Shown here piece by piece: positions 71 through 23,972 of a stretch of 39,974 nucleotides of DNA; positions within the stretch are counted from its first letter, which is position 1, and each line of letters starts with the position of its first letter. A model generated the notes under the pieces. The model had not been told where the DNA came from, searched no databases, and was given only the letters and a program-made list of their open reading frames with translations. The translations under genes were made by a program, and so were the position numbers. The DNA is from Planctomycetota bacterium (GTDB taxonomy: Bacteria > Planctomycetota > UBA8742 > UBA2392), in assembly GCA_020425515.1 (NCBI GenBank), contig JAGQRI010000069.1, forward strand, positions 1-39,974, written 5' to 3'.

Positions 71-3000
71 TCAACGTTTTTCCTCATGGCGGACGACGCG
101 CGTCAACTGGTTCAGGTCCATCGACGCGCCCTGGAACTGCAGCGTCGTCTTGTAGTTCTCGTCGGCGAAGGCGCCGCGCTTGAAGTAGAAGTAGACGCGC
201 CACTCAATGCGGTCGGCTCGGATGCCGTCCGGCGAATCCGGCAGGTTCGTGAAGTCCTGGGTCTGTTCGTACAGCGTGCTGCCCAGGTCCTCGGTGTTGG
301 CGGCCCCCGGCGCGAACTCGAACGAATACAGCCCGCCGATCCGGTTGGTCGGCACGGAGCCCCAGTCGGGCATGCGCCGCCCGGGCAGCTTGAAGCGCAC
401 CACCAGCCGCGCGCCGATCGCGTTGCTGTGGCGCGACATGTCGGCCAGCGGGGCGTACTGGATGCGCCAGCGGAACTTCGAGTAGATCGAATTGCGGAAC
501 GCGGCCGAGCCCTGGAAGTACGAGATTTCCGGGCTTTCCGCGCCCGGTATCCCCTCGGCCGCGGAGTTGTGGTACGCCGACGAGGTCGTGCCGCCGCCGC
601 GCGCGTTGGTCGAGTGATAGTCCGGGAACCAGTCCGGGAAGCGGACCGGCTGGTCGAAGAACAGCGCCCGCGTGCTGTAACCCATCGCCTGCGTGCCGTA
701 GGAGCCGCGGAACAGCGCCTGCGGATCATCCGGGTTGTTGTACACGCCGCAGTTGATGTTGCCGGTACGGATGGTCGCGCCCTGGTTGGATGGGTCCGGC
801 AGCTGGACTTCCTGGTAGCGCTGGTAGCCGATGATCTCGGTCTGGCCTGACTCCTCCTCGATGCGGATGAAGCCGTACGGGCGGAAGGTCTCCTCGCCGA
901 GCGTCGTCGCGATGAAGCTGGTGCGCGGCGTGCCGGAGGCGTTGGGGCGCCCGACGCGCAGGCTGGCCATGTTCATGATCGGCGTGCCGCCGGCGTGCGC
1001 CTCAACGGGCGAGCCGAGAATCCCGCGGCTGATGTCCACCAGCCAGTAGGTGTCGATGGTGCTGGTCTGGCCCGTGACCGGGTTGGTGACCAGGATCTGC
1101 CGGACCTCGGTGCCGCGGTAGGCAATCAATTCGTTGTCCACGTGCACGACGCCCATGTTCGGCGGCAGCGGCGTGTTCACCTGCACGTCCTGCGCGTTGC
1201 CGGGGATGGCGTCCGTCATGTCGCTGACGAGGCGGAAGTTGCCCTTGGTGTACTTGCGGAATTCAAAGGCGTCGAAGTCGCCGGTGTTCACCAGCGCCGC
1301 GCCCGACGAGCCGCCGTCCTGCGTGCGCGGGTCGGGCGCCGCGAACGACCACTGCGTGGGCATCTGCACCGGCAGCTCCCCCGTGGGGAACTTGCACAGG
1401 TTGGTGTTGCGGTTCCACTGGTTGGCATTGTTGGGCGGGAAGGTCAGCCTGGTGTGGTCGTCGAGCCCGCAGATGAACTGGTTCTGGTTGCCCGCGGACG
1501 GCGAAGGCAGCACCCCGCCCGTGCTGAAGGTGGCGTTGAACGTCACCCAGTCAACCTGCATGTCGGTCAGCGGTTTGTGCCGCCTGATCTGGTGCTGTTC
1601 CTTGTTCGAGTTCTCGTCCTGCACCAGCGTGATGATGTCGGTTTCGCCGGTCTTGACAGTCGTCCCGAAGGTCGGCAGGACGCGCGCCGCGGCGATATGC
1701 CCGGCCACACCGGTGCCCATCGCGCCGCGCCACGGGCTGAACGGCACGGCGTTCTTGTTGTCGTTCAGAATGCAGTGGCGGGCAAAGATCGTGAGCCGCG
1801 AGAAGTCCAGGTAGAACAGCCCGGGGAACAGGTTGTCATCGTTGCCGGTGGCGGTGGCGCCCGGGACGCTGATGCCGTTGTCCGGGTTCCAGACGCGGTT
1901 GTAGAAGAACCACTCGTCGTCCACCTGCACGATCGAGCGGTCGTGGTAGCCGAGCACCGAATCGACGTCGATACTCAGCGGCATCACCACGCTGCCCAGC
2001 GCCAGGAAGTTGATGATGTTCGCGTCAACCTGGTTGCCCGCGGCCGGGACCATCAGGTCGGTGTAGGTGCCCAGGAAGTGCCACCAGGTGTTCGCCGGCT
2101 TGTAGTTGAAGTTCTGGTCGTAGCGCGCGATGACGTTCAGCCCGCTTGCGCTGACGCCGTCGTAGGCGACGTATTCCATCTTCAGGTTGGCCAGGCGCAG
2201 TTGCTGCGGGTTGGCGTTCAGGTTGGGCGGCTGGACGACCATCGGGTCGCGCACGTTGTGCGGCACGGGGTAGACGCCGGTCCCGGTCGGAGGCGTGTTG
2301 GAGTTCCCGTCGTCGTTCCAGTTCGGGTACTCGAAGGTGAGCGGAATACCGGGCGTCGAGCCCTTGGGCATGTAGTCGTTCCACGCCAGGCCGATGACCG
2401 CGACGATGCCGCGCTCGGGGATGCCGGTGTAGTCGTCCAGCGGCAGGTGGTTGGGGTCGCCGCCGCGGGTGTCGTCGCCGGCGCCCGCGAAGCCGGCATC
2501 CGGGCCGAGCTCGGTCGAGCGGAAGTACTTCGAGTCGTTGCTGCCCGCCTTGGAGACGCGATAGAACGAGCGCGCGCCCAGGTTGCTGTTCAGCAGCCCC
2601 TGCGTCTGCGGCAGATCGGGGAACTGCGGCACGTCCACGTTGTTGCTGTTGCTGTTGTAGGCGCGCAGACCGTCGGTGTAGCCGAACACGGTCACCTGGC
2701 TGCCCTGCGGATGGAAGGCCGGCGCCGTGCCGCGCGCGCCGCGCCGGATGTTCAGCAGCGCGTAGCCGTTGTTGCCGTTGTACTCGATGGCCTCGCTGCC
2801 GATCACCACGACGCCGCGCGGCGGATAGCCGTCCACGTCCTGCTGGTCTACCGGCAGGTCGATCGTGACCGCGCCGCCGATGGCCGGGTTCTCGAGGTCC
2901 TGCTGTAGCGTGGTGGTCCGCGTAAGCCACGCGCCGTTGGTCTGGCGGAAGGTGTGATTGACCACGGGCTGGATGCTGGTGCCGCCGGCGGTGGAGTTCG

Positions 3001-5482
3001 CGTCGCCGTCGAGCAGCAGGCTGATGTGCGAAAGTTCGTCGCCTTTCCAGTTCAGCGCCATGTGGTACCAGTCGCCGTTGCGGAAGTGCGCCGGGTCGAG
3101 CTCGTAGCGAAGCTCGGTGTACGCCTCCTGTAGGGTGCGGTCCTTCACGCGGAACACCAGCCCGCTGTTCTTGCCCGCCAGCCTGTACGCGCCCTTGCGG
3201 TCGCCCCACCACAGCAGGCTCATGCGGTTGCTGTACTCCTGCTCGGCGACGTCGAAGATGTAGTGGTTCTGCGCATGGTCCTGCCATTGCGGGCGGTACC
3301 AGAAGCTGAACATGCCCGCTTCCACGTTGCCGGCCTCATAGCTGCTGACCGAGCCTGGCGGCGTCACCTGCTGGACGTTGCTGTAGAACTTTTCCGGGCG
3401 CACCTTGTCGTCGGCGAGGTTGTTCATGTTCTGCGGCACGCGGGTGGTCCACGGTTGCGGCGGGCCGTTGAGCGTGCTGAGCCCGCGCCAGCGGCGCACC
3501 ACGCGCTCGTCGGCAAGGTAGTGCAGATACGGCAGCTCGAGCAGCCCGACCGCCCGCTGGTTTTTGGTACCCGCGAGTTGCAGTTGCATGATGTTGCCCT
3601 GCGGCAGTTCCATCTCGCGCCTGAGCTGCTCGTAGGTGAACCAGCTGTAGGTGCGCTCGTTGTCGCTGCCGATCTGCACCCATTCGCGGAACGCATCGCG
3701 CGCCATGGCGCCGCCGGCCGGCTGGTAGCGCGTGGCGAACGCGTCGACCATATAGGTGTCGAGGCTGTCGAAGCGGAACTGCGCCGTCACCGCGCCCTGG
3801 TTGCGCGTAGCGTAGGGGTAGCGCTGCTGGTTGGCGAACAGCCCGACCTGCTGTGCGTTGATCGGCGCCGGCTGCTGCTGCGAAAGTTCGGTCAGGAACT
3901 GCAGCAGGTCGTCGAGGTCCGTGAACGGCTCGTCACCGTGCGTGCGGTCGTAGATCGCGCCGGCGATCTCATACGCCTGCGCCTTTGAGATCGGCATGTT
4001 GCCGGTGCTCTGCCCGCGCGGGCCGACGCCGTGGAAGACGGCCGCCAGCGTATCCGGGTTGGCGGTGTTGATGTTGATCGAGGCGCGCTCGGCGGTCTCG
4101 ATCACCCAGGCTTCGTTCTGGTTGATGGTGCGGTCGCCAAGGCAGGCGATGGTCAGCCCGCCGTACCGCGAAGGCTGGTTGTTGTTGCCGGGGCGCCCCG
4201 GGTAGCTGCCCAGCACCATGCCCAGGAACGACTCCTTGTTGCCATCCAGGCGGCGCAGGCGCACCAGGCAGCCGCGCCCGAGCCCGGACCAGAACGCCAC
4301 GTTGTTGGCCGGGTTGGGGCGGCGCGGGTCGAGGGGCTGGTAGTAATCCTGCTGCACGCCGATCTGGTCGTCGTACTGGATCTGCAGCGCCATCTTGCCG
4401 CTTTCGCCCATCGCCACCATGTCGCCGCTGACGACGACGTGCGGGTAGCACCAGCCGCCGTCGTAGTGCTCGGTCGGGCAGATCGTCGTCGCGTTCTCGT
4501 CGAGCCACTGGTAGGTGACCGGGTCCAGTCCCTCCGGCCAGCCGTCGAGTCGCTGCCCCATGATCACCGGCGCGACCGCGAAGTCCGGCGCGAACCAGCG
4601 GCCGGGCTCGGCAATGCGGCGCACGTCACCGACGCTGTTGAAGATACCGGGGCGGAAGCCGTCCGGGCTCTGCATCCAGCTCCAGTAGGCGATCTTGTAG
4701 GCCGTCGGCGTGGTGACGTATTCGCCGGTCTGGATTTCGCGCCCGACGCTGTTCCAGACGAACAGGGCGTTGGCGCTGTTGTAGGGCGGGTTGGGGATGC
4801 AGTTGTAGAGCACGTTGCCGCGCCGCAACTGGTACTTGAAAAGCTGGTTGTCGATCACGACGTAGCCGCCGCCGTGCTGGTCGTCGCTGCCGACGTCGTC
4901 GTAGGCGTCAAGGAAGCTGGCATCCTCCAGCACGATCTGCTCGTAAATGCCGCCGGTGGACGACGCGTTGCTGGTCACGGTGCTTGAGCCGATCATGTTG
5001 CCGACCAGCGCGACGGTGCTGAAGTTCAGGTTCACCTTGCCGGTTTCGTCCTGCACGTTCATGCCGAGCACGCGGCTGTGCGGGTCCTCAACGCGGAACT
5101 TCGGGTTGCCGTTGTCGTCCACGAGCCCGGGGAACAGCGGCGGCTGATCCTGCCAGCCCTCGAAGTCGGCCAGCAGGTCGATGACGCTTTCGTCGTAGCC
5201 GTCCACCCACGGGTTGTTGTCGTTGGTGACGTCGGACGGGATGGTCTGCTCCCAGCGCGCGAATTCGTTCAGGCGGTTGCGGGTGTTCAGGCGCGCATAG
5301 GCGTGGTCGGCGCCGGTGCGGGTGATGATGCGGGTCTGCTCGCCGCCGAGGCTGGCGACGCTGGTGCCCTGCTGCTGCGACATCAGGAAGGTGAAGCTGA
5401 CGGCCAGTACCAGCAGCAGCGCCAGGATGACCATCACCATCATCAGCGCGGCGCCCCGGCGATTGTGGTCTCGGGTGTTCAT
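71..5482 (-). CDS. Giant GspK-like minor pseudopilin with LamG-like domain
   Basis: A protein of 1803 residues. The N-terminus matches a GspK/PilX-type pseudopilin: a basic stretch ending RRG, then a hydrophobic helix (about residues 11-33) with no Glu at position 5, as is usual for GspK. A helix-hairpin-helix segment typical of GspK (ININTANPDTL, then a DLDDLLQFL element) lies at about 464-530. A LamG/concanavalin-like region follows at about 715-840 (FSFWYRP, WYHMALNW, LLLDGD). Later come at least two copies of a module of the form V-I-x-x-E-x-I-x-Y followed by RG-x-x-G and H-x-x-G, at about 890-930 and 1440-1505. The ATG at 5482 was chosen because it overlaps the upstream prepilin stop as ATGA and directly precedes the signal. 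GspK is normally about 300 residues, so this is a greatly expanded relative. It probably sits at the tip of a pseudopilus or is exported by it; the partner is unknown. Confidence 0.75.
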   Translation of the reverse strand: MNTRDHNRRGAALMMVMVILALLLVLAVSFTFLMSQQQGTSVASLGGEQTRIITRTGADHAYARLNTRNRLNEFARWEQTIPSDVTNDNNPWVDGYDESVIDLLADFEGWQDQPPLFPGLVDDNGNPKFRVEDPHSRVLGMNVQDETGKVNLNFSTVALVGNMIGSSTVTSNASSTGGIYEQIVLEDASFLDAYDDVGSDDQHGGGYVVIDNQLFKYQLRRGNVLYNCIPNPPYNSANALFVWNSVGREIQTGEYVTTPTAYKIAYWSWMQSPDGFRPGIFNSVGDVRRIAEPGRWFAPDFAVAPVIMGQRLDGWPEGLDPVTYQWLDENATTICPTEHYDGGWCYPHVVVSGDMVAMGESGKMALQIQYDDQIGVQQDYYQPLDPRRPNPANNVAFWSGLGRGCLVRLRRLDGNKESFLGMVLGSYPGRPGNNNQPSRYGGLTIACLGDRTINQNEAWVIETAERASININTANPDTLAAVFHGVGPRGQSTGNMPISKAQAYEIAGAIYDRTHGDEPFTDLDDLLQFLTELSQQQPAPINAQQVGLFANQQRYPYATRNQGAVTAQFRFDSLDTYMVDAFATRYQPAGGAMARDAFREWVQIGSDNERTYSWFTYEQLRREMELPQGNIMQLQLAGTKNQRAVGLLELPYLHYLADERVVRRWRGLSTLNGPPQPWTTRVPQNMNNLADDKVRPEKFYSNVQQVTPPGSVSSYEAGNVEAGMFSFWYRPQWQDHAQNHYIFDVAEQEYSNRMSLLWWGDRKGAYRLAGKNSGLVFRVKDRTLQEAYTELRYELDPAHFRNGDWYHMALNWKGDELSHISLLLDGDANSTAGGTSIQPVVNHTFRQTNGAWLTRTTTLQQDLENPAIGGAVTIDLPVDQQDVDGYPPRGVVVIGSEAIEYNGNNGYALLNIRRGARGTAPAFHPQGSQVTVFGYTDGLRAYNSNSNNVDVPQFPDLPQTQGLLNSNLGARSFYRVSKAGSNDSKYFRSTELGPDAGFAGAGDDTRGGDPNHLPLDDYTGIPERGIVAVIGLAWNDYMPKGSTPGIPLTFEYPNWNDDGNSNTPPTGTGVYPVPHNVRDPMVVQPPNLNANPQQLRLANLKMEYVAYDGVSASGLNVIARYDQNFNYKPANTWWHFLGTYTDLMVPAAGNQVDANIINFLALGSVVMPLSIDVDSVLGYHDRSIVQVDDEWFFYNRVWNPDNGISVPGATATGNDDNLFPGLFYLDFSRLTIFARHCILNDNKNAVPFSPWRGAMGTGVAGHIAAARVLPTFGTTVKTGETDIITLVQDENSNKEQHQIRRHKPLTDMQVDWVTFNATFSTGGVLPSPSAGNQNQFICGLDDHTRLTFPPNNANQWNRNTNLCKFPTGELPVQMPTQWSFAAPDPRTQDGGSSGAALVNTGDFDAFEFRKYTKGNFRLVSDMTDAIPGNAQDVQVNTPLPPNMGVVHVDNELIAYRGTEVRQILVTNPVTGQTSTIDTYWLVDISRGILGSPVEAHAGGTPIMNMASLRVGRPNASGTPRTSFIATTLGEETFRPYGFIRIEEESGQTEIIGYQRYQEVQLPDPSNQGATIRTGNINCGVYNNPDDPQALFRGSYGTQAMGYSTRALFFDQPVRFPDWFPDYHSTNARGGGTTSSAYHNSAAEGIPGAESPEISYFQGSAAFRNSIYSKFRWRIQYAPLADMSRHSNAIGARLVVRFKLPGRRMPDWGSVPTNRIGGLYSFEFAPGAANTEDLGSTLYEQTQDFTNLPDSPDGIRADRIEWRVYFYFKRGAFADENYKTTLQFQGASMDLNQLTRVVRHEEKR

Positions 5483-6726
5483 GGCGTGTTCCCCGGTTTG
5501 GCGGGTTGGGGTTTGTTCTCGGGCTTGGGCGGGGTTTCCCACGGGAGGATGTCGACGTAGTCCCAGGTCACGGCGCCGAGCGGGTGGAACGTCACCTGCA
5601 AACGGACGACTTCGCCGTTGTCGATCGCGGCCAGGTACACGAACATGGCGCCCGGGTGACGGGCCGGGTCGAGCTTGCCGGACGCGTCGTAGTAAATGTG
5701 CTGGATGGCCGGCACGGGCTCGGTCGGCAGCCCGGGCGGCGGGGGCTCCGGTTGCGGGCCGCTGTTGCTTTGGGTGACCGGGCCGTTGGGCTTGTTGGGC
5801 TTGTTGTAGACCCCCTCGGCCTGCCCCTCGATTTCGAGTTTGGGGTCCACGCCCGGCGGCACCAGTTGCGCGCCGTCGAGAGTGAGCGTCTGGCTGCTGA
5901 TCAGGCTGTTCAGCTCGAAGTTGTCGATGCGGCAGATCACGCCGCCGATCTGCACGTCCACGCCCATCGCCGACGGCACGCTGAAGCCGTTGTCGGGGAT
6001 CACGCCCTCGGTGACGCGCCCGTCAACGTACAGGCTGACGCCGTACTGGCTGACGGCAATCTCGACCGTGCACCAGCGGTACAGCGCGATCCAGGTTTCC
6101 GAAACCGCGGACACGCCGCCGCTGTTGAGTTCCAGCTTGACGGCATTTTCGCGGCGGTCCGCCACGCTGATCGTGAACACGCTGCCCATCGTCACGATGG
6201 TCGAGCCGCCGCCGCCGAGCGGGAAATAATCGAACGAAACCGCGATGCCCTCGTAGTCGCCTTTGACGTCGTACTGCTCGGCCCACGGGATGGTGAATCT
6301 CGACTGCGTCTCCGGCAGCTCCAGCGCGCCGCCGTCGCGCAGCATGAACTCGCGCCCGACCCGGTTGGTCGCGCCGCCCGAGGCCGTGGCGACGACGTTG
6401 CCGCTGCCCAGCGACCACTGCGAGCCCTCGAAGGCGAAGGTGGCCAGACGGCGGCGGGCAAGCGCGACGACCTGGTCGTGCTTGTAGTCGATCACCAGCT
6501 CGGAGTGCACTTTGCGCACGCTGCTGTTCTGGCGGATGTTGCCCACCATGGCGCGGATGCCGCGAGCATTGCGCTCGAGTGCGGGGCCGGTGGCGCCGGG
6601 GCCGAGGAACGTCGCGAACACCAGGAAGGCGACGATCAGGATGGCGATCACCACCAGCAGCTCAAGCATGGTGAAACCACGCCTGCGGGCGCTGTGCAGA
6701 TTTGAAGTCAATGCCGGCATAGCCAT
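5479..6726 (-). CDS. Type IV prepilin-like protein with lectin-like domain
   Basis: A protein of 415 residues with a class III (type IV) prepilin signal: a basic leader, RRRG, then FTMLELLVVIAILIV. The prepilin peptidase site is predicted after Gly17, leaving Phe1 and the conserved Glu5. The rest is far longer than a pseudopilin and looks like a concanavalin/LamG-type beta-sandwich (YRWCTVEIAV, VSLYVDGRV at about 235-260), with a Pro-rich tail. It overlaps the downstream GspK-like gene by four bases (ATGA), so the two are probably translated together and act in one pseudopilus. No clear ribosome site precedes either candidate start (ATG 6726 or 6720). The mature part after the signal is not in doubt. 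A longer upstream reading frame exists but lacks signal-peptide character. Confidence 0.75.
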   Translation of the reverse strand: MAMPALTSNLHSARRRGFTMLELLVVIAILIVAFLVFATFLGPGATGPALERNARGIRAMVGNIRQNSSVRKVHSELVIDYKHDQVVALARRRLATFAFEGSQWSLGSGNVVATASGGATNRVGREFMLRDGGALELPETQSRFTIPWAEQYDVKGDYEGIAVSFDYFPLGGGGSTIVTMGSVFTISVADRRENAVKLELNSGGVSAVSETWIALYRWCTVEIAVSQYGVSLYVDGRVTEGVIPDNGFSVPSAMGVDVQIGGVICRIDNFELNSLISSQTLTLDGAQLVPPGVDPKLEIEGQAEGVYNKPNKPNGPVTQSNSGPQPEPPPPGLPTEPVPAIQHIYYDASGKLDPARHPGAMFVYLAAIDNGEVVRLQVTFHPLGAVTWDYVDILPWETPPKPENKPQPAKPGNTP

Positions 6727-6917
6727 ACAACACCAGCGATTGCAGGGGGTGGTGCGTATTAAGCATCCTCGCAAAACAGGGTGCCGATGCAAGCCGGGTG
6801 GGCCAGCGGGGTATGCCCATACGCAGTTGCGGATAAGGCTTGCGCGAGAAGGCAAACACCAAATCGGATTCCTGAACCACCACGATCCGATGTCGCATTC
6901 AAATCGCGCGGCATGCC

Positions 6918-6945
6918 TTGCCGGGACACGCGCGGCAAATAGAAT
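6918..6945 (+). promoter_or_regulatory. Sigma70-type promoter of the 6S-like RNA candidate
   Basis: TTGCCG (6918-6923), a 16-base spacer and TAGAAT (6940-6945) make a good -35/-10 pair. The predicted start at about 6952 coincides with the 5' end of the long rod-shaped fold that follows. No protein gene starts downstream before the terminator at 7165-7195. Confidence 0.6.
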
Positions 6946-6951
6946 GTCTCA

Positions 6952-7195
6952 CGCTTACTGCTGTGTTCGCCAGCCTGACGACATAGTTTGCGGCGCCGAT
7001 GAACGTGCCAGGGGAGGACCTTCTCGTCCTGTCAATAATTCAAGCCCTCCCACTTCGTTGAGGGACGGGTTGGACAGGCCGGAAACCACCCACCTTGCTT
7101 ATCAAGGGTGCACAAACTGTTCAGCGCAGCGACACGAGTGGTTTGCTGAAAAGGAAACGAGGCCGGGCCGAGAGCACGGCCCGTTTTCGTTTTTC
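6952..7195 (+). ncRNA. Rod-shaped structured RNA candidate, 6S-like
   Basis: There is no convincing reading frame. The 5' segment (about 6956-6995) is complementary, with small bulges, to about 7110-7143: GTGT/ACAC, CGC/GCG and AGTTTG/CAAACT blocks pair in order. The middle forms an apical stem in which CCTGTC (7029-7034) pairs with GACAGG (7073-7078), enclosing CCCTC/GAGGG. A small hairpin (CACCTTG...CAAGGGTG, 7091-7110) lies in the 3' side of the internal bubble. A closing stem containing TGTTCGC, an open central bubble, a 3'-bubble hairpin and an apical stem are the architecture of 6S RNA, the RNA polymerase-binding regulator. It has its own promoter and ends in an intrinsic terminator. 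The identity is inferred from shape and short motifs only; another structured RNA remains possible. Confidence 0.45.
7165..7195 (+). terminator. Intrinsic terminator after the structured RNA
   Basis: GGGCCG (7165-7170) and CGGCCC (7177-7182) form a stem with a six-base loop. It is followed by GTTTTCGTTTTT. Confidence 0.75.
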
Positions 7196-7208
7196 ACAGA
7201 GCTTCGGC

Positions 7209-7360
7209 CTCACGCCAAGGCGCAAAGACGCCAGGAACGATAGCTACAGACCTCGCGCAGAGACCGCAGAGTACGCGGAGTTGTCTTTCTCTGTGGCCTC
7301 CGCGCTCTCTGCGCGAGACCGCTTTTTGCAGTTCTTGGCGTCTCTGCGCCTTGGCGTGAG
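7209..7360. repeat. 150-bp nested palindromic repeat
   Basis: The outer arms are the CACGCCAAGGCG block at 7210-7233 and its near-exact inverse at 7336-7359. The inner arms CTCGCGCAGAGA (7252-7263) and TCTCTGCGCGAG (7306-7317) are perfect, with GCGGA/TCCGC inside them. The unit can form one long hairpin. It sits between the structured RNA terminator and an exported-protein gene and looks like a dispersed intergenic repeat. No reading frame in it is believable. Confidence 0.8.
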
Positions 7361-7429
7361 ATCGAGTAGCCGGCTTTTGCGTTCCGGTCGGCTGTGCGCG
7401 CACGTAAAAGGCGCTGACGGAGAATCGCT

Positions 7430-8887
7430 ATGACACGCCATGTTTTGACCGCCTTGTTGCTGCTGCTCGCACTGTGCGGCGTTCGCGCGCAGGACGAGCC
7501 CAAGCCGCAGCCGGCAGACTCGGTGATTGAGGCCGACGGCAACCACGCCGTGGTCGAGCCGTTCACGCACATCGACTACAAGCCGCTGGTCGAAAGCAGC
7601 GGGCTTCAGTACTGGCAGGGCGCCTGGTGGTCGCACAACGACAGCGGCGGCGCGCCTGTGCTGTACCGCGGCGAGACGCCCGACTTCAAGGGCGCGCACC
7701 CCTACAGCGTCAAGGGCGCCAAGGCCGTGGACTGGGAGGAGATCACCGTCATCGGCGACGACCTGCTGGTCTGCGACATCGGCGACAACCACCGCCGCCG
7801 CGACGACCTGATGCTGTACCGCGTTGCCTGGAACGCCGACACCGCCGAGCTGAGCCTGAAGGCCAAGTACCCGGTCGCCTACCCCGACGGCAGCCACGAC
7901 GCCGAGGCCGTGGCCGTCGTGGGCGGCAAGCTCACCATCGTCACCAAGCACCGCGGCGAAGGCTTCACGGGCGTCTACCAGTTCAATGAGCTGAAGGAAG
8001 GCGAAACCAACACGCCCGAGTTCGTCGGCAAGCTCGACATCGACGAGCACACCATGATCACCGCGGCCGACTACGACGCGGAACGCAAAAAGCTGGTATT
8101 GCTCAGCTACACGCGCATTTTCATTTATGGCGACAAGCTGGAGGGCAAGCCCGAGCGCAGCCTGCTGCTCTACGCGCAGCAGTGCGAATCGCTGTGCCTG
8201 CACGACGGCGCGGTCTACTACGGCAACGAACAGGGCGAGATCTTCAAGGTCGACAACTTCCTGGGCGGCAAATACGAAAGCCTGCTGCCGCCGCGGGTGA
8301 AGGCCGAGCTGCCGGTCGCGGCCGGGGACATTGAGCCTGACGGCAGCGGCGAAAGCTGGAAGGAGGGGGCGTTCACGCTTCCGCTGGCAAGCCTGAACGC
8401 GAAGGAATACCTGCGCTGGAAGGTGTGCGGCGCCTACCTGATGCTGGCCGGGCGCTTCGACTACGACAGCTTCAACAGCAGCAGCGAAACCGGCGACCGG
8501 CTGGGCTCGGCGCTGATGGTAATGATCGGGCGCGAGGAAACCGAGTTCCTCAAGGGCGACGAGTTGCACCTGTGGCTGGGCGACAACGGCGTGACCGGCG
8601 TCGACGCCTGGAAGCTCGACCCGGAAAAGTTCACGCTGTCCGTGCTGCCGGGCGCCAAGTGCAGCGGTGAGGTGAAGGCCAAGGTCTGGACGTTCGAGTA
8701 CGCGATCCCGCTGACGCAGGTGTTCGGAGAAGGCGAATTGCCGGCCAGGTGCGTCGCCAACGTATGGGCCTACAACGTACACGGGCGCGGCGAGCCCCAC
8801 CTCGCGGGCGACACGCTGTTCTGCTTCGGCAACCCCTACGTCTGGGCCGACGTCGGGATCAAGCAACCGGCGAAGAAGGACGACTGA
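7430..8887 (+). CDS. Exported protein of unknown function, possible beta-propeller
   Basis: A protein of 485 residues. It starts with a Sec signal peptide (MTRHVLTALLLLLALCGVRAQ, cleavage after about residue 20). The first 290 residues have repeated beta-rich segments with Asp/Gly turns (WWSHNDSGG, LLVCDIGDNHRRRDDL, DAEAVAV, ESLCLHDGAVYYGNEQGEIFKV), which suggests a propeller-like extracytoplasmic domain. The last 170 residues (LRWKVCGAYLMLAGRFDYD to the end) resemble the carbohydrate-binding CBM9/DOMON-type sandwiches often placed at the C-terminus of secreted enzymes. The start is supported by GGAG seven bases upstream of ATG. It is transcribed alone and ends before a bidirectional terminator. 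No catalytic motif could be assigned; the domain readings are tentative. Confidence 0.75.
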   Translation: MTRHVLTALLLLLALCGVRAQDEPKPQPADSVIEADGNHAVVEPFTHIDYKPLVESSGLQYWQGAWWSHNDSGGAPVLYRGETPDFKGAHPYSVKGAKAVDWEEITVIGDDLLVCDIGDNHRRRDDLMLYRVAWNADTAELSLKAKYPVAYPDGSHDAEAVAVVGGKLTIVTKHRGEGFTGVYQFNELKEGETNTPEFVGKLDIDEHTMITAADYDAERKKLVLLSYTRIFIYGDKLEGKPERSLLLYAQQCESLCLHDGAVYYGNEQGEIFKVDNFLGGKYESLLPPRVKAELPVAAGDIEPDGSGESWKEGAFTLPLASLNAKEYLRWKVCGAYLMLAGRFDYDSFNSSSETGDRLGSALMVMIGREETEFLKGDELHLWLGDNGVTGVDAWKLDPEKFTLSVLPGAKCSGEVKAKVWTFEYAIPLTQVFGEGELPARCVANVWAYNVHGRGEPHLAGDTLFCFGNPYVWADVGIKQPAKKDD

Positions 8888-21263: not shown

Positions 21264-23972
21264 TCACAATTCCCCGCGCCGCCACACTGAGCGCAAAGCT
21301 ATCAGCATCGCCGCGAGCAGCCCGGCCAGCAACAACCGGGACCGGGCGTTCGGGTTGGCCGTGCAGCCGCCGCCCCCACCGTCTCCTCCGCCGTTTCCGC
21401 CGCCACCGCCGCTTGGCGTCTGCTCGGTGATGGTCGGTACGTCGGTCGGGAGAGACTCGGTCATGGAGCCGTCGGTCGCCGTGACCACGAACGGGTTCAG
21501 AGCGTCCTGCGCGAGGGTGACCACGATGCTGAAATCGACCGCCCCGCCGCTCAACTGCTGCTGCGCGACCGACGCGTCCGAGCCGTTGATGAAACCGTCG
21601 TCGTTGGAATCACTGTAGATCTTCACCAGGCTGTTCGCCGGCGCGGTACCGACGATCGTGTATGTCGCCGCGTCCAGCGTCACCGCGACGGCCGGGTCGG
21701 TCACAACCGGCTGCGCCACCAGCGGGGCCGAGGTCTCGGTAATCGTCGGCACGTTCGTGGGCGTGCTCTCGAAGCCGGTGCCGTCCTTGGCGGTCACCAC
21801 GAAGTTGTTGGTCGTGCTGAGGGTCAGCGGCGTCGAGATGTTCCAGTTTGTGCCGCCGCCGCTCAATTGTTGCGAGCTCACGACCGTGTCCACCGGGTCG
21901 ATCGCGCCGTTGTTGTTGTAGTCGATGTAGACCTGCACCAGCGCGTCCGGGTCCGCCGTGCCGATGATGTTGAACGTGCCGCCTGTGGTGTTCGTCGCCG
22001 TCGAGGGCGTGGTCACAACGGGCGGGTTCGGCGGCGTCGAGGTCTCGGTGATTGTGGGGACGTCGCTCGGCTCGGACTCGATGGCTGTGTTGTCGACCGT
22101 TGCCATGAAGTTGTTGGCCGTGCCCGCGGAAAGCGAGACCGTGATGCTGAACGAATGGTTGCCCCCGGTCAGTTGCTGTGTGCCGACCACGCTTTCGCCG
22201 GTGTCGATCACCGTGTTGTTGTTCAGGTCCGCGTAGATCCGCACCAGCGTGTTCGTCGCCGCCGTGCCCTTGATGACGTAGGTGGTGCTGGCGACCGAGA
22301 CCGCCGTGGCCGGGTCCTCAATGATCGGGCGCGGGAACCCGAGCTGCACTTCGATGGCGCCGATGTCAGCCTGGCTGTGCTCGCGGTTGTACCACAGCCC
22401 GCGGGTATCATTGACGAGGTTGAGCGGGTTGCTGCCGGAGTTCAGCGCGGCGCTGTTGGTCGGGATCAGCCGGGTCAGCAGCACGCCGCCGTTGTTGGCC
22501 AACGAGCCGAGCTGCGGGTTCTGGTTCAGCTTGTTCGCAACGGCGCCGTTGCTGATCGACGTGTCCGTGGTGTTGCCGAACAGGCAGCCGCTCGCGGTCA
22601 GCGCGCCGAAGAAGTCAGGCCCCTGCGCCGCTGTGCCGCCCCAGAAGATCGTGCTGTGCGCCGTGACCGTGCCGCCGCCGCGGTAGACGTTGCCGCCCTG
22701 TGTGCTGCCGGTGCTGCCCTGGCTCGAACCCGCGCCGCCCGTACCGCCCGTGGCCGTGCCCTCCGCGACGGTGCAGTTGTAGAAGGTCGGCGTGCCGCCC
22801 GTGAACGCGAACGCGCCGCCCGTGGCGTCACCGCCCGGCGCGCCCGCGCCGCCTCCCGACGAGTCGCCGCCGGTCCTGCCAAGGGCCGTGCCGCCGCTGA
22901 AGGTGCCGTTGATGAAATCGGCCATGCCGGTGTTGGCGTACACGTCGCCGCCGGATGCGGACCCGCCTGCGCCGCCATTGAATCCGTTGTTGCCGTCGCC
23001 GCCTATAGCCTGGTTGTTGTAAAGTGTCACGCGCTGGAGCGTCAGGCTGCCGTTGGACAGGTAGATCGCCCCGCCCCTCGCCGCACCGCCTGAGCCGCCG
23101 TCGCCGACCTGTCCCACGGGACTGCCCGGCCCAGGGTTGCCGCCGGGACCACCTCTTCCGGCATGCGCCACGATGTTGTCGATTGTCGTGTCACTGATAA
23201 CCGCCGTGCCGCCGCTGATGTAGATCGCGCCGCCCTGCGCCGCACCGCCGTCGCCCCCAGTGCCGCCGTCGCCACCAGCTCCCGCGCCTGTATTGATGCC
23301 GCCCGAACCGCCCAAACCGCCCAAGCCGCCGCTCGCGTTGATGGTGCTGATCACGCAGCCGTCCAGCGTCAGCGTGCCGCCCGCATGATAGATCGCGCCG
23401 CCGCGCGCCGGTGCGCCCGTCCCGCCCGGGCCGCCGTCGGCGGGCGGGCTGCCGGGTGTACCGAGCGTGCCCACGGCGCCGGCCGCGCCGCTGGTTGAGC
23501 AGGTAAGGATCTCGACGCTTTCCAGCGTCATGTCGCTGCCGCTCTCGTTCAGGATCGCGGCGCCCCGGGCCTCGCTGCCGTTGGTGCCATTGTCGACGGC
23601 CGAGCCGCCCTGGATGGTCAAGTCGCGGAACGTGACGGTTGCCCCGCCGCTCATGTTGACGTGAAAGACGCGATCGACGTTGCCGCCGTCGATGATCGTC
23701 TGGCCGACGCCCGCGCCCTCGATGACCAGGCTTCCGCCCGTACGGATAATGTCGAGGTCGCCGCTGCCGTTGGAGTTCTCGCCCGCCGCACCCGACAGCG
23801 TGAAGGTACCGGCAACGACAGTGATCGTATCGCTGCCCGTATTCCCGTTGCTGGTCGTGATGTGCGCGCGCAACTCGGATACGTTGTTGGCGGTGAAGCT
23901 TGCGGCCGACACCCCGCCCGCGGCCAGCACGCACAACACGGCCAGCGCAAGCAATGCGGATTTGCGTTCCAT
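21264..23972 (-). CDS. Gly-rich beta-helix protein with three Ig-like Ca-loop repeats
   Basis: A protein of 902 residues. The signal peptide is MERKSALLALAVLCVLAAGGVSAA. A beta-helix with Gly-rich linkers (about 30-440) contains the choice-of-anchor Q end LANNGGVLLTRLIPTNSAAL...NDTRGLWYNREHSQADIGAIEV. Three tandem domains of about 90 residues follow, each beginning VVTxPxxAxx and carrying an Asp/Asn loop (DLNNNTVIDTGE, DYNNNGAIDPVD, DSNDDGFINGSD) that looks like a calcium-binding loop, then QQLSGG and NxFVVTATDG. The tail (GGGGGC, then LLLAGLLAAML, then ALRSVWRR) matches the tail of the neighbouring beta-helix protein. The ATG at 23972 has GAGG six bases upstream. It lies 79 bases upstream of the other beta-helix gene, so the pair probably forms an operon. 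Confidence 0.85.
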   Translation of the reverse strand: MERKSALLALAVLCVLAAGGVSAASFTANNVSELRAHITTSNGNTGSDTITVVAGTFTLSGAAGENSNGSGDLDIIRTGGSLVIEGAGVGQTIIDGGNVDRVFHVNMSGGATVTFRDLTIQGGSAVDNGTNGSEARGAAILNESGSDMTLESVEILTCSTSGAAGAVGTLGTPGSPPADGGPGGTGAPARGGAIYHAGGTLTLDGCVISTINASGGLGGLGGSGGINTGAGAGGDGGTGGDGGAAQGGAIYISGGTAVISDTTIDNIVAHAGRGGPGGNPGPGSPVGQVGDGGSGGAARGGAIYLSNGSLTLQRVTLYNNQAIGGDGNNGFNGGAGGSASGGDVYANTGMADFINGTFSGGTALGRTGGDSSGGGAGAPGGDATGGAFAFTGGTPTFYNCTVAEGTATGGTGGAGSSQGSTGSTQGGNVYRGGGTVTAHSTIFWGGTAAQGPDFFGALTASGCLFGNTTDTSISNGAVANKLNQNPQLGSLANNGGVLLTRLIPTNSAALNSGSNPLNLVNDTRGLWYNREHSQADIGAIEVQLGFPRPIIEDPATAVSVASTTYVIKGTAATNTLVRIYADLNNNTVIDTGESVVGTQQLTGGNHSFSITVSLSAGTANNFMATVDNTAIESEPSDVPTITETSTPPNPPVVTTPSTATNTTGGTFNIIGTADPDALVQVYIDYNNNGAIDPVDTVVSSQQLSGGGTNWNISTPLTLSTTNNFVVTAKDGTGFESTPTNVPTITETSAPLVAQPVVTDPAVAVTLDAATYTIVGTAPANSLVKIYSDSNDDGFINGSDASVAQQQLSGGAVDFSIVVTLAQDALNPFVVTATDGSMTESLPTDVPTITEQTPSGGGGGNGGGDGGGGGCTANPNARSRLLLAGLLAAMLIALRSVWRRGEL

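Follow-up and report, generated by a model that had tools for sequence, protein, structure and literature searches.

Positions 6918-7195 of the window almost certainly hold the one ssrS gene that this planctomycete carries, in which a sigma-70-type promoter and an intrinsic terminator enclose a rod-shaped 6S RNA. The window is the whole stretch of DNA that was analysed, a complete contig of 39,974 bases that forms part of a 4.1-Mb draft genome. It belongs to the Planctomycetota, whose assemblies supply all of the closest named relatives of a protein from the window. 6S RNA is a small RNA and global regulator, which sequesters the main bacterial RNA polymerase by mimicking an open promoter. A 6S RNA with its own promoter and terminator had been proposed for this region from the letters of the DNA, and the proposal is supported by a full-length match to the Rfam 6S model (RF00013) and by covariation. 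The original prediction let the range open at the -35 box, which is correct for the extent of the gene; the RNA itself runs from about 6952 to 7185-7190. Judged by its sequence, the locus is a new sequence in the known 6S family, from an uncultured planctomycete group. Its interest lies in a gap of coverage, as 6S RNA has been reported missing from this phylum and automatic annotation drops many of the copies.

Homology, fold and covariation of the RNA

The Infernal search with RF00013 that had been recommended, run at a relaxed threshold, matched model positions 1-187 of 187 to the plus strand at 6952-7148, with 46.0 bits and an E value of 2.9e-8. This is the sole RF00013 match in the genome, and ssrS is present as a single copy. 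At default thresholds, Rfam returned zero matches in the entire window, because the score falls 0.4 bit short of the RF00013 gathering cut-off of 46.4 bits. Close relatives score on either side of that value: RF00013 gives 46.4 to 68.3 bits in G247, a genome of the same genus, and in relatives from g2, g3 and g6 of the family, and 39.8 to 44.8 bits in three further genomes of the same genus. The group as a whole thus spans the cut-off, and the window copy sits towards its lower end. With a model built from ten family members (R1) the core scores 217 bits, and with a phylum model built from 37 planctomycete sequences only (R2) it scores 167 bits. R2 also recovered ssrS of E. coli, at 1484-1667 compared with an annotated 1484-1666 (70 bits, E 1.6e-14), and in its alignment the CCGAU of E. 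coli 6S RNA stands opposite the CCGAU of the window.

The 246-nt stretch at 6950-7195 folds with a free energy of -102.7 kcal/mol (z = -4.5), and 0 of 200 shuffled sequences were equally stable. The rod, the complementary ends and the apical stem that had been read from the sequence are all present. In the RF00013 consensus, the 5' strand of the closing stem (6953-6970) pairs with its 3' strand (7129-7146), and 10 of the 15 pairs in helices 1 and 2 are two-sided, meaning that they show changes on both sides of the pair, in a phylum alignment of 37 sequences (A4). The P2, or downstream, helix pairs 6987-6997, which also carries pRNA template, with 7107-7116 (helices 5 and 6; 8/10 pairs two-sided in the 37 sequences), and the apical (internal) stem and loop occupy 7012-7091 (helices 7-11; 22/24 pairs two-sided in A4). 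The central bubble held up in the comparative structures and less well in the thermodynamic one: its 5' strand (6998-7011), which faces approximately 7092-7106, is unpaired in the RF00013 and RNAalifold consensus structures and is partly closed in the minimum-energy fold. Plain folding programs can partly close the bubble of a 6S RNA. If the fold is computed with the template strand kept open, the apical stem persists and the small 3'-bubble hairpin that had been predicted forms at about 7091-7110, as CACCUUG-CUUAU-CAAGGGUG, an alternative to P2. Relatives carry variants of this hairpin (CCUUG/CAAGG and CCUG/CAGG), and it is weak in the remotest members.

Covariation among related genomes, which had been named as a further check, is strong. 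An alignment of 10 family sequences (the window and nine relatives) was made with MAFFT and was not fitted to a model. In it, 17 of 54 pairs are two-sided, with 42 two-sided cells against 13.1 in shuffled alignments (0/500 shuffles reached this level), and sliding the partners by 1-3 columns lowers the paired cells from 95.7% to 37-45%. In A4, two-sided pairs rise to 45/54 (414 cells, where shuffling gives 131.5), and paired cells make up 90.4%, compared with 68.4% shuffled and 41-47% slid; these counts are somewhat inflated, since the model used to align A4 already contained this structure. The rod with its closing stem, central bubble and apical stem is thus supported by covariation, and the low Infernal score with no covariation that had been named as counting against a 6S RNA is not what was found.

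Conservation of the primary sequence traces a transcription unit. Across the 10 family members, the -35 box (columns 6917-6922) has a mean identity of 90%, the -10 box 97%, the RNA 83% and the terminator 89%, whereas the value is 51% upstream, 54% in the promoter spacer and 39% after the terminator. Within the RNA, GGCGCCGAUG (6992-7001) is invariant across the 10 sequences.

Promoter, terminator and predicted mode of action

The promoter proposed originally, TTGCCG-N16-TAGAAT, is present at 6918-6945 on the plus strand, and both of its boxes are kept among relatives. A pattern scan found it as the sole promoter-like site within 6000-8000, where 0.2 would be expected from shuffles. The -35 element TTGCCG (6918-6923, with CTTGCC at 6917-6922) retains TTG in 10 of 10 family members, and the -10 element TAGAAT (6940-6945) reads TA(C/G)AAT in all ten; in four remoter members, TACACT or TACAAT occupies the -10 position. 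The spacer is exactly 16 bases long in each of the ten, and 6 or 7 bases separate the -10 box from the conserved start of the RNA. The intrinsic terminator (7164-7190, plus strand) consists of CGGGCC..GGCCCG and then TTTTCGTTTTT; its stem covers 7164-7183 and leads into TTTTCGTTTT. Taken by itself, the terminator scan was not significant (2 found, 1.8 expected), and the terminator is accepted because relatives conserve both the stem and the T-run (89% mean identity over columns 7164-7192). A GC stem lies behind the 6S RNA at every family locus read. Rfam matches to mir-128 and to Giardia U1 at the terminator (E 0.17-6.4) were rejected as chance matches to a GC hairpin. The conserved promoter spacing and the terminator together indicate that the RNA, about 180-240 nt long, is transcribed as a unit of its own.

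In E. coli and B. subtilis, 6S RNA acts as an open-promoter mimic that binds the housekeeping holoenzyme and is freed by a pRNA copied from the 5' strand of the bubble (PMC8876501; PMC10406553). By analogy with this family, transcription in the planctomycete would begin near 6952 from the sigma-70-type promoter and stop at about 7185-7190 at the intrinsic terminator, to give a primary RNA of about 235 nt, which may afterwards be shortened to about 200 nt. Folded as a rod, with a bubble that resembles melted promoter DNA, it would be expected to bind the holoenzyme of the housekeeping RNA polymerase and to curb transcription once nutrients are exhausted. Two proteins with sigma-70 region 1.2 are encoded in the host genome.

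The pRNA template motif GCCGAU lies at 6995-7000 in the 5' strand of the bubble, adjoining P2; it is invariant in the family and aligns with the CCGAU of E. coli, where the E. coli pRNA starts at U44. When nucleotides return, the 5' bubble strand would serve the polymerase as template, with synthesis beginning opposite U7000 and continuing through P2 to yield AUCGGCGCCGCAAAC... as the product. The predicted pRNA is accordingly written 5'-AUCGGCGCCGCAAACUAUGU, with its start at U7000, and the products are predicted to begin 5'-AUCGGCGCC. The opened P2 would leave the 3' strand free to fold into the hairpin at about 7091-7110, and the polymerase would be released.

The gene resembles E. coli ssrS in its full-length alignment (RF00013), in its closing stem, central bubble, P2 and apical stem, in the GCCGAU template start and the 3'-strand hairpin alternative to P2, and in being a single copy with its own promoter and a gene downstream on the same strand. 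It differs in the template past AUCGGC and in its neighbours, which are zapA and fau in E. coli but a pilin-like gene and a gene for 485 amino acids (no Pfam match) in the window. To 6S-1 RNA of B. subtilis, for which a 3'-bubble hairpin and release by pRNA synthesis are reported (PMC8876501), it is alike in rod architecture, a likeness drawn from published descriptions.

6S RNA in the family and the phylum

The 6S gene was found in 14 of the 16 genomes of the family, and all 14 sequences preserve both the CCGAU motif and P2. It sits between the pilin-like gene (5479-6855, minus strand) and the 485-aa gene (7430-8887, plus strand), an arrangement conserved across the family; a genome of the same genus (G193), for example, has the synteny of the window. 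One of the two other genomes (G104), in which 6S was not found, is missing both flanking genes too, and the locus is therefore probably unassembled. In the second (G204), the pilin-like gene is kept and neither 6S nor the downstream gene was found, through either natural loss or misassembly. By eye, the similarity of its contig C54 to genome G022 stops short of the promoter, upstream of position 23591 (locus L096).

R1 detected 6S RNA in genus g5 (three genomes, 96-107 bits) and in g4 (72.8 bits), where RF00013 gave nothing above chance. These copies (loci L064-L067, in genomes G226, G151, G265 and G068) have the gene order of the window, a -10-like box before them and a GC hairpin behind, and thus represent orthologues missed by the Rfam model. 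Outside the family, a genome of the same order (G180) gave an RF00013 match of 25.4 bits (E 0.005) on the minus strand at 8966-9164 of contig C132 (locus L074), with a -10-like TAGACT and a 3' hairpin seen by eye; from its sequence it is probably another drifted 6S RNA, which is plausible but unproven.

A sample of 392 genomes spread evenly over the phylum was then surveyed. RF00013 at E <= 0.001 matched 168 of them, 102 over the cut-off and 66 below it, where annotation would pass them by. R2 matched 179/392, 37 of these new, and the union of the two models covers 205/392, or about half, with one match per genome listed; counts based on R2 are estimates, because its E-values are rough and its filters strict. 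A sample genome with no match may have lost the gene, be incomplete or carry a drifted form. Since RF00013 already recognises many of the copies, the occurrence of 6S in the phylum could be read from existing models, and planctomycete 6S is not a new kind of RNA.

The original prediction remarked that 6S RNA is poorly described in groups like this one, and the remark was fair. The one paper found that deals with 6S RNA in planctomycetes (PMC5673643) detected none in Thermogutta terrifontis; it reports the RNA as missing from three planctomycetes and cites the main survey (Wehner et al., 2014). It appears likely that 6S RNA is widespread in the Planctomycetota and that its reported absence is partly a failure of detection, in that drifted, clade-specific forms (such as those of g4 and g5) escape the Rfam model although their promoter, gene order, fold and pRNA start are preserved. 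The alignments obtained here could help to improve the family model and to select cultured species for direct testing.

Alternative readings and neighbouring features

The drift of the g4 and g5 sequences beyond recognition by RF00013 could also be expected of an RNA that descends from 6S and has changed its partner or its mode, for instance by binding core polymerase or by losing the pRNA. A precedent for the former is actinobacterial Ms1, whose rod-shaped structure is related to that of 6S and which binds RNA polymerase (PMC9130861). Such a change is very unlikely here, as the pRNA start and P2 are retained throughout the 14 family sequences and the planctomycete model still recognises 6S RNA of E. 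coli. Moreover, Ms1 binds the core enzyme, whereas the window RNA matches the 6S model over its full length; no Ms1-type family appeared among the Rfam results for the window up to E 10, and the pRNA template motif is present.

Two other readings would deny that the locus encodes a free small RNA of this kind. In nearly every family member the 485-aa gene lies downstream in the same orientation, with its first in-frame start as close as 27 nt past the RNA core, and the RNA might on that account be a structured leader or attenuator of this gene. We regard this as extremely improbable: a terminator separates the RNA from the gene, both structure and template motif are of the 6S type, RF00013 matches recur phylum-wide beyond the family, and ssrS of E. 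coli likewise precedes a gene, fau. That the rod is a chance fold or the remnant of a coding sequence has a negligible probability. A mechanically called ORF of 243 amino acids (6512-7243) does span the region, but relatives show alignment gaps of 1-3 bases, the boundaries are fixed by the promoter and the terminator, and the compensatory changes, the fold z score of -4.5 and the E value of 2.9e-8 speak against it; the covariation excludes such a reading.

Several features of the surroundings were also observed. The pilin-like protein encoded at 5479-6855 carries an N-methylation motif (PF07963), and its gene adjoins that for a very large protein of 1823 amino acids (71-5542, minus strand) with no Pfam match; most of the family keeps both of them next to 6S. 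At 7204-7365, immediately after the terminator of the 6S gene, lies a nested palindromic repeat about 160 bases long, with outer arms of 35 bases that are 89% complementary and inner arms of 29 bases. The distance from the 6S core to the next gene start is 27-206 nt in most relatives compared with 281 nt in the window, and the repeat thus looks like an inserted mobile element. Its arm motif recurs at about a dozen sites in the genome.
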